A stretch of 64,000 nucleotides of DNA, from contig NC_068346.1 in NCBI RefSeq assembly GCF_014633365.1, positions 36,519,191 through 36,583,190 of the forward strand, written 5' to 3'. Shown here piece after piece: positions 6,201 to 9,200 of the stretch. Source of the DNA: Diospyros lotus. Its lineage: Eukaryota; Streptophyta; Magnoliopsida; Ericales; Ebenaceae. A model generated the notes under the pieces. The model searched no databases. It had not been told where the DNA came from and worked only from the letters and a program-made list of their open reading frames with translations. Made by a program: the position numbers and the translations under genes. The stretch's first letter is position 1. The number at the start of each line of letters is the position of its first letter.

Positions 6201-9200
6201 TATATGTCACAATTGGTTTCAAAGCCAGATGTTGATCAGAATGGTGATGATGGGGCATGTTATGAGTCAGCACTTGTCTTGTCCCACTAAATTCTTGTCA
6301 TAGTGGTGATGAGGAGGGAAGTAAAGATGATCAATACATTAACAATTTGAGAGCTTTGATTGAACATAACTTGATCTTTGTGACTGTTCCTAGTTAATTT
6401 AGCTTGAAGTTTGATGCAATTTATGGCTTCTTTGATGGGTAGTTGAGCTTGAAACAGCAAATGCCAAGTTACTTGGGAGCAGCTCGGTTCATGGAACAAA
6501 TTTCTTAAGTTTTCCAGCCATTTGTCGTCATTAAACAGTAAATAGATTTACCAACCATGCTATGCCACATAGATTTTAATTTTGGGATTGTTATTTTTAT
6601 TGTTATCTAACTTAATCTAGTGTTACATGTTTGGCCACTTGAAAATCAGCTATACATTTTCTGACATATTCGATGTGGTGTGAAATGTGAATTTCCCACC
6701 ATGGCAATTTTCAGATCATCAATGCATTCAACATGTCGGGTAGAGAAAATCTATATTTTTGGATTTTGTTTCTTATCAGAACATAAAAATCTTTATACAT
6801 GTTTGAAATAATAACTGCTTCATTTGCTAAACGTATAATTTTATTCCATTCTATTGAAATATTAATGAAGTGTACACATTCTATGTGTTTAAAAAAAGTG
6901 AGAAGTGATGAAAACCCTAACCATTAACCTTGCAAAATCTGTTACTGTAGCAAAATAAAAGTTCAAGCATTTCAGAATGACAAATCTAGGAAGTTTCGAG
7001 GAGTAGGGCATATTAGGAACAAATTCATATTTTTATTGGTTGGCTCCTATGTTATTTATTTATTCATTTTCTCTGAACTTCTTACTCTACACATTGTATA
7101 TGCATGGCTGAAAGTGTCTAAAGCACAACCAGGTACAAAAAATTAACAAAGCTAAGGACACAATGAACTCATCCTGTACGTGCTAATGTGCTAGTACATA
7201 TTTGATATGTTTGGTCTGATTGGGGTGCAAACATATTTTTCTGCAAGCATTTTTCTATGGATACACATGATTGTGCATTGAAATGAATGGCAATTTGGCT
7301 TATTTTTTTTTGTTCCTTTGGTTTTGCTGGAAATAATGGTAATTCAAATGGTATAAACTTACTATGTTTGACTGTGAGTTATAATAAGAAAAATAGTCTT
7401 TCTGCAAAACTTCCAACTCAAAGTATGGACACTCGGCAAAATATTAGATGCAGCAGTAATGTGTTCATCTATGTGAGTGTAAAATATACCAAGGGTATAC
7501 TATCTGAGTGCAGGAGTGACGTTTTGCTGCGACATTTGGAGAGACTTCATGCTCGTGAATCACTTACTCGAATTGTTATTGATGAAGCTCATTGTGTGAG
7601 CCAATGGGGACATGATTTCAGACCGGACTATCAGGTTTTTAGCTTTTTAGAACTTTTAAACTAGCCATTTCAGATTGTATATCTTTAGTTGATGCTAAAT
7701 TATTTGCTATGTTGGTTTTAGGGTCTTGGTATCTTGAAACAGAAATTTCCAAATACACCAGTGTTGGCTCTGACTGCAACGGCCACTGCTAGTGTCAAAG
7801 AAGATGTAGTCCAAGCTCTTGGTCTTATTAACTGCATTGTTTTTCGGCAAAGTTTCAACCGTCCAAATTTATGGTAAGTGTTGCATATAGATATATACCA
7901 TTGGTCAACGTTGAATTGCCCCCCCCTCCCAGGTATTATTTCTCAGCGTTCTGTATATGAGCCTCTTCAAACGGGAGTTATTGCTATTGATTCAATGATT
8001 CCTATAGGATGTGGTCAACGAGAATTAATTATTGGGGATAGACAGACCGGTAAAACAGCACTAGCCACAGATAGAATTCTTAATCAACAAGGACAAAATG
8101 TAATATGTGTTTATGTAACTACTGGTCAAAAAGCATCTTTTGTGGCTCAGGTAGTAACTACTTTCCAGGAAAGAGGAGCAGTGGAATACACTATTGTAGT
8201 AGCCGACATGGTGGATTTTCCTGCTGCTACATTACAATATCTCACTCCTTATACAGGAGCAGCTTTAGCTCAATATTTTATGTACTGTGAATGACATACT
8301 TTAATCATTTATGATGATCCTTCCCTTTTTTGGACTTTGCAGGTTTTCTGTTCTTCCCAAGACAAAAAAATGTGTGGAAGACATTGACAAGTTCATTAAA
8401 GAAAATCATTTTGATGAATGTGGAATTATTTATTGTCTCTCAAGAATGGACTGTGAAAAAGTTGCTGAAAAGTTACAGGTTCATCCTTTGGCAGCTGCAT
8501 CAAGAAAATGAACCTTGTTGACATAACTTATATATACTAATAGTGAACTTATTGTGTGTTGCAGCAAGAAAATAGATATCATTTATGATATTTCTTTTCT
8601 TGCTTGTAGCCTGACATACAAGTAGGAGATATTTGTGTTTGGATTTACTTGATAGGTCAAGCATTGTTCCTAGTGAAGGTAGTAATTGTGAATTCATTTG
8701 AAAATGAAAAAAAATGTCTTAAACTGCTTGAAAGATTAATCACTGCTGATTGGTCCTTGTCCATTCATTCTTCATATGACATGTTTTGGTATATTTAGGA
8801 CCTGTTTGTGGGCATCAAAATTATATGATTTTTGTAAAGCTAGTTTCTTTTATTATGCACATAGCTTTTATCTAAGGCCATGTTGTGGTTCTTCCATATG
8901 AATTCTTGTTTTATATTGTTTTGGACTTGTATTTGTGCCTGGTCCCCTCTTATCTAATTTCCATGTTTCTTATATTGTTTCCACTGCCTTCCCGATATCC
9001 TTTCTCCTTCAATTCACATTCTGCAAAACTAAAGCTCCCTCTTACTGAAATTTTGAACTATGACCATTTTGCTACAACTGAATAACGGATCAGCATTAAA
9101 AAAGATGATTTCTCTCAGTGCCAATAGTTTAATTGAGCTTTTATGTGGGGCTTGTTTGGAAGCGACATAACTTTTATATGATGATGAATTAGAAGAATGA

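Follow-up and report, generated by a model that had tools for sequence, protein, structure and literature searches.

The RECQ4A locus of Diospyros lotus raises the question of what becomes of a nuclear gene when plastid coding DNA comes to lie in one of its introns, just in front of the next exon. An earlier note on the 64,000-nt stretch of D. lotus DNA analysed here (the window) placed about 420 bp of the chloroplast ATP synthase alpha gene (atpA), at 7905-8325, in an intron of a RECQ4A-like helicase gene. It suggested that the fragment may be spliced in as a cryptic exon, or that it may have altered the branch point and pyrimidine tract of the acceptor. The features that bear on this question are collected in Table 1.

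The host gene, plant RECQ4A, occupies the region 3291-13160 of the window, with its stop codon at 13158-13160. The protein built from the exons in the window was most similar (99%) to the D. lotus RECQ-like 4A protein (P0121, 1192 residues), followed by proteins of Camellia and Actinidia (75%), among the best 120 of 4126 matches. P0121 possesses helicase, zinc-binding, RQC, and HRDC domains. Mapping P0121 back onto the window gave 22 exons, separated by introns of 70 to 1474 nt, and the spliced translation was identical to P0121 at all 1110 of 1110 positions (residues 83-1192). P0121 is an annotation, perhaps from the same assembly, and this identity is not an independent proof of splicing. 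The part of RECQ4A inside the window is intact, its frame being open to the stop codon, and the exon ends at 7873 and 8343 given in the earlier note hold, since splicing there yields the D. lotus RECQ4A protein. No exact 7-residue match to residues 1-82 of P0121 was found on the plus strand of the window; the first exon or exons may fall outside the window. The exact mapping also gives the intron at 10785-10931 a GC donor (AAG/GCAAAG).

Table 1. Features of the insert-bearing intron of RECQ4A and its surroundings (window coordinates)
Feature	Position	Strand	Basis or remark
RECQ4A exon before the insert-bearing intron, ending ...RPNL + tg of Trp	7722..7873	+	exact match to P0121
Host intron, 469 nt, GTAAGT...TTTGCAG	7874..8342	+	splicing restores P0121 residues 83-1192
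Left host remnant, ending in a C-rich run (GCCCCCCCCTC)	7874..7928	+	plastid match no better than chance; no YTRAY
Plastid-derived atpA fragment, codons 135-265 (spinach numbering)	7929..8324	+	protein matches, Pfam, approximate plastid reference sequence
Competing AG at the left junction, directly after the host C-rich tract; candidate cryptic acceptor	7931..7932	+	score 3.3 vs 7.3 at 8342
Extra codon, a 3-nt insertion compared with plastid atpA; placement ambiguous near a GCT repeat	8218..8220	+	
AG-free stretch of 72 nt before the acceptor, plastid-derived to 8324	8269..8340	+	
In-frame TGA	8292..8294	+	66 of 106 AtpA proteins have Arg here and 37 have Gln
Candidate branch site TTAAT (YTRAY)	8301..8305	+	putative function
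CCT at atpA codon 264; a plastid RNA editing site in its unedited form (C)	8319..8321	+	sequence
Right host remnant CTTTTTTGGACTTTGCAG, end of pyrimidine tract and acceptor	8325..8342	+	no plastid match past 8324
Next RECQ4A exon, beginning with the g of Trp and FSVLPKTKK...	8343..8478	+	P0121 mapping

The surroundings of the gene contain several other elements. A remnant of the C-terminus of a Tf2-type integrase, probably Ty3/gypsy (Pfam SH3_Tf2-1, 3e-19), lies at 1940-2482 (+), upstream of the first mapped exon of RECQ4A at 3291. Further upstream, at 491-1110, are tandem repeats rich in G (683-977), with periods ranging from 6 to 52 nt; they are enclosed by 64-nt direct repeats (550-613 and 1047-1110) that are 78% alike. 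The region 13400-14599, just after the RECQ4A stop, is very A+T-rich (G+C of 14.5-22.5% in five 400-nt steps starting from 13400 to 14200). Farther away are a frame at 37550-38290 (-) that resembles potassium channels in its ankyrin repeats and KHA domain, a 694-residue frame at 50542-52623 (-) with SPARK and protein kinase domains, and pieces of Mutator-type transposases (MuDR DNA-binding and MULE domains) at 54358-54897 (+) and 59595-60038 (+). ARAGORN found no tRNA in the window, and no Rfam family matched it at the gathering score.

The translated insert matched the spinach chloroplast ATP synthase alpha chain (1fx0_A) with an E-value of 1.4e-57 and 196 bits, and Pfam ATP-synt_ab matched its frame at 1.9e-26. 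Among the best 60 of 73 matches, a further chain labelled 'chloroplastic' (22vl) reached 166 bits and an engineered hybrid 149 bits, whereas natural bacterial chains reached at most 143 bits and mitochondrial chains about 110-117 bits. Because the spinach chloroplast chain outscores the bacterial and mitochondrial ones, the insert is, on the evidence of its sequence, plastid atpA and not atp1. A plastid match no better than that expected for atp1 had been named beforehand as a reason to drop the assignment, and the gap between 196 and about 110-117 bits removes that concern. The greater similarity to plastid than to mitochondrial or bacterial chains at the protein level is that expected of nuclear plastid DNA (a NUPT), as is the nuclear embedding: the insert lies between exact exons of RECQ4A, and P0121 comes from a 38-Mb contig. 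A bacterial or phage origin was rejected, as the blastn hits to atpA in 17 plasmid and 7 phage records had identities of 60-80%, with none covering 80% of the query; the plasmid records were 68-77% identical across 18-60% of it. Among viral contigs there was no relative and no copy of land-plant plastid DNA. The best 80 of at least 596 matches among genome contigs likewise contained no land-plant plastid copy; they were bacterial by title, and their best match to the spinach protein was 84%.

The limits of the insert were set at the nucleotide level with an approximate reference stretch of plastid atpA, the translation of which equals the Camellia sinensis protein (P0004) at 185 of 185 residues; the plastome of D. 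lotus itself has reportedly been sequenced (PMC4956199). Strict scoring delimited 7929-8324, with 356 identities and 37 mismatches in 393 aligned bases plus the 3-nt insertion. Looser scoring stretched the match left to 7903, and this extension was equalled by 167-193 of 1000 random window pieces and by 138-196 of 1000 shuffles. The plastid match back to 7903-7905 is no better than chance and was discarded, so that the plastid fragment described earlier stands, with its start moved from 7905 to 7929 and its length reduced from about 420 to 396 bp. The right edge is sharp at 8324, and the fragment, a sense-strand copy of atpA, ends 18 nt from the exon, close to the acceptor as had been described. 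No stop interrupts the AtpA-like frame between 7878 and 8291, and the plastid part before the stop comprises 121 codons, rather than the roughly 125 counted before.

The fragment carries clear marks of decay. Thirty-two codons differ from the approximate plastid reference, 17 of them residue-changing (one being the TGA) and 15 silent. Thirteen changed residues fall at sites that are the same in at least 102 of 106 AtpA proteins (the 120 listed matches minus 14 of unsuitable length). Of the 21 base changes within the residue-changing codons, 12 are C>T or G>A, as expected for a methylated nuclear pseudogene. The in-frame stop and the substitutions agree with the view of the earlier note that the insertion is not recent. 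From the approximately 21 base changes in the residue-changing codons and some of the silent ones, the divergence may be roughly 6-7%, which at general nuclear rates would correspond to an age of the order of 10-25 million years.

The open frame had also been taken as a hint of use, and this does not hold. Neutral simulations in six settings, with 20 to 37 substitutions, gave mean stop numbers of 0.7-1.5; in 54-84% of the runs there was at most one stop. Since the single stop matches this prediction, the open atpA frame is, under the model, no evidence of use. The 17 residue-changing codons, including the stop, are in line with the unconstrained decay of a NUPT, yet their share (17/32, 53%) is below the neutral expectation of 74%, the reference for this count being approximate. 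The surplus of silent changes likely arises from plastome differences and errors in the reference. Selection on the atpA frame was rejected on the stop simulation and the 17 replacements, although the silent share exceeds the neutral expectation against the approximate reference.

As for the route into the nucleus, codon 264 of the fragment is informative. At this position (791) of birch atpA, C-to-U editing reaches 98% (PMC6302522), and passages of PMC10253099 contain nothing on this site. The CCT in the insert is the state of the DNA, which favours transfer as DNA. The content of the insert, which lies within one coding gene, would by itself also permit an origin from reverse-transcribed plastid mRNA. 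We nevertheless consider this highly improbable in view of the unedited codon, a single site for which editing in D. lotus is assumed, and of the conclusion of a NUPT survey that integration proceeds predominantly via DNA molecules (PMC3989485). Slightly less improbable, but still very unlikely, is a detour from the plastid through mitochondrial DNA to the nucleus. Plastid DNA is common in plant mitochondria, and the mitogenome of the congener Diospyros oleifera has 28 plastid insertions (PMC9283892). However, atpA is present in none of the 28 as tabulated there, so the detour is not indicated. The earlier note also named a plastid or bacterial sequence misjoined into the nuclear contig as a possible refutation, and the junctions do rest on the assembly. 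Stray plastid reads would, however, be nearly identical to the organelle gene, whereas the stop, the extra codon, and the 13 changes at nearly invariant residues mark the fragment as other than current organelle sequence. It is also far from bacterial atpA, as the 17 plasmid records show, and both flanks form a contiguous intron between exact exons. An assembly artefact is in our judgment the least probable of these origins, with only a slight chance of being correct.

The anatomy of the intron gives insight into how the acceptor may now function. Joining the two host remnants yields an intron of 73 nt with an unbroken pyrimidine run (C8-T-CC-T6), and no YTRAY motif occurs in the joined halves. 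It appears that the plastid DNA entered downstream of the old branch point and upstream of its AG, splitting the pyrimidine tract; that the original branch point lay upstream of the insert is a guess. Splicing normally uses the first AG downstream of the branch point. The last AG upstream of the real acceptor is at 8267-8268, and only the final 16 nt of the AG-free stretch that follows are host DNA. Because this stretch is mostly plastid, the branch point serving 8342 should lie in plastid DNA and is thus probably plastid-derived. The best candidate is TTAAT, the one YTRAY motif of the stretch, the branch A of which (8304) is 38 nt from the last intron base and the letters of which are identical in the approximate plastid reference. 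A search for YTRAY in Arabidopsis covered distances of 11-52 nt, and most of the motifs lay at 20-36 nt (PMC5640774); a distance of 38 nt is within the searched range and just beyond the main one. Fifteen of the 21 RECQ4A introns, including the insert-bearing one, carry YTRAY in the 11-52 nt range and six do not, so the motif appears helpful but not required. By chance, it occurs in 119 of 360 stretches of 37 nt of the insert, and its presence is weak evidence for a branch point. When the acceptors at 7932, 8150, 8256, and 8342 are compared, a YTRAY in range precedes the last of them alone. When the cut point was slid through the insert, 38 of 316 alternative positions gave an AG-free motif in range. 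The suggestion that the branch point and pyrimidine tract were altered is therefore supported by the anatomy, with the insert splitting the tract and probably supplying the present branch point.

The other suggestion, splicing of the insert into the mRNA, was evaluated with a splice-site matrix built from the other 20 introns of RECQ4A. The real acceptor at 8342 scored 7.3, and cryptic acceptors scored 8.7 (8256), 7.4 (8150), and 3.3 (7932). Cryptic donors reached 6.8 compared with 7.0, and the donor-like sites at 8050, 7933, and 8151 are in the range of real ones. The insert contains 32% T, an intermediate value (40% in the other introns, 27% in the exons) that is nearer that of the exons. 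Because scores come near or above those of the real sites, they do not by themselves exclude leakage. We then have to consider that the insert is partly spliced in, as a cryptic exon or from an alternative acceptor, and that the resulting truncated or nonsense-mediated-decay transcripts tune the RECQ4A level. The sites at 8256, 8150, 8050, 7933, and 8151, the intermediate base composition, and the AG placed by the left junction right behind the host C-rich tract all speak for this. Against it, 36 events with the higher-scoring sites were modelled (retention, 7 alternative acceptors, 7 alternative donors, and 21 cassettes), and in all 36 the first stop fell at residue 559-600 of 1110, leaving no useful protein. 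No AtpA 6-mer occurred in any of the best 120 among 4126 RECQ homologues, the D. lotus protein being one of them, and the junction was ungapped in every one of these 120; these listed proteins thus lack the insert, unlike those of an exonized insertion. In addition, no YTRAY is in range upstream of 7932, 8150, or 8256. All of these findings are still compatible with low-level leakage. A useful cryptic exon was rejected on the early stops of the modelled events, and partial splicing that tunes the RECQ4A level seems unlikely to us, though less so than the alternative origins discussed above. If splicing leaks at all, the effect would be a lower output of RECQ4A and not a new protein.

The match to plastid atpA, its place in the intron, its decay, and the open RECQ4A frame are direct observations. 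We consider it probable that a piece of plastid atpA was captured in a RECQ4A intron and has decayed, and that the intron is still spliced with a plastid-derived branch point. The course of events may have been as follows. Plastid DNA of about 0.4 kb (atpA codons 135-265) would have been captured in the Diospyros lineage, probably when a nuclear break was repaired by end joining, in the pyrimidine tract of a short RECQ4A intron of about 73 nt, the empty site being reconstructed from the host halves. The original branch-point region would thereby have been pushed about 0.4 kb from its AG. Since capture, the insert would have decayed neutrally, while RECQ4A presumably stayed functional, with the enlarged intron still removed between 7873 and 8343. 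Splicing would now most likely proceed from a branch point in the end of the insert (best candidate TTAAT), together with the T-run and CAG that remain from the host at 8325-8342.

A bolder form of this proposal is that a chance plastid fragment serves as a working branch-site region in a conserved helicase gene: the insertion broke the original pair of branch point and acceptor, created the competing acceptor at 7932, and rescued splicing through a Leu-Ile codon motif of atpA. We regard the case for and against this full sequence of events as evenly balanced. If it is true, such survivals would filter which NUPTs persist near acceptors, given the 38 suitable cut points among 316. The insert makes the survival of introns after such hits testable, RECQ4A appearing to be still working. 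It leaves the RECQ4A protein unchanged and suggests no new coding function; it also provides a presence-or-absence marker for Diospyros species.

An intronic NUPT is of a kind already well documented, and the anatomy is unusually clear here. NUPTs were found in introns of 249 moringa genes, though they are under-represented in the genes of that species (PMC11110229), and a survey of 30 species reported a significant association of NUPTs with introns in 19 of them, with introns exceeding exons (PMC12572781). According to the introduction of the latter, few cases of this kind were on record before. Intronic NUPTs have mostly been counted rather than dissected, and RECQ4A offers a clean anatomy, an organelle fragment separating the acceptor of a conserved gene from its likely branch point. 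The insert resembles functional plastid-to-nucleus gene transfers in that plastid coding sequence is present in the nucleus. Unlike such transfers, which involve a complete frame and plastid targeting, it comprises 131 of about 507 codons, with an internal TGA and no targeting peptide. With the organellar patches of new exons (Noutsos et al. 2007, cited in PMC12572781) it shares coding-like organelle DNA in a nuclear gene; it differs from them in that it bears no sign of translation and the listed protein models skip it. A plastid-derived branch point does not appear in the titles and opening parts of abstracts of the papers listed on NUPTs, plastid DNA, and splicing, material that does not establish its absence from print. 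What is new, as read from the sequence, is that the insert apparently split the splice signals and probably supplied a replacement. The intronic NUPTs of angiosperms (PMC12572781; PMC11110229) are alike in being short plastid pieces that decay by point changes in an intron of an intact gene; the RECQ4A insert differs from them in lying 18 nt from the exon, in splitting the pyrimidine tract, and in the likely plastid origin of the branch point. A close parallel is an expressed moringa gene in which a NUPT spans the end of an intron and the start of the next exon (PMC11110229). In both genes, plastid DNA forms the acceptor end of the intron, but the moringa insert reaches into the exon, whereas in RECQ4A the exon and the acceptor AG are those of the host and only the part upstream of them is plastid.
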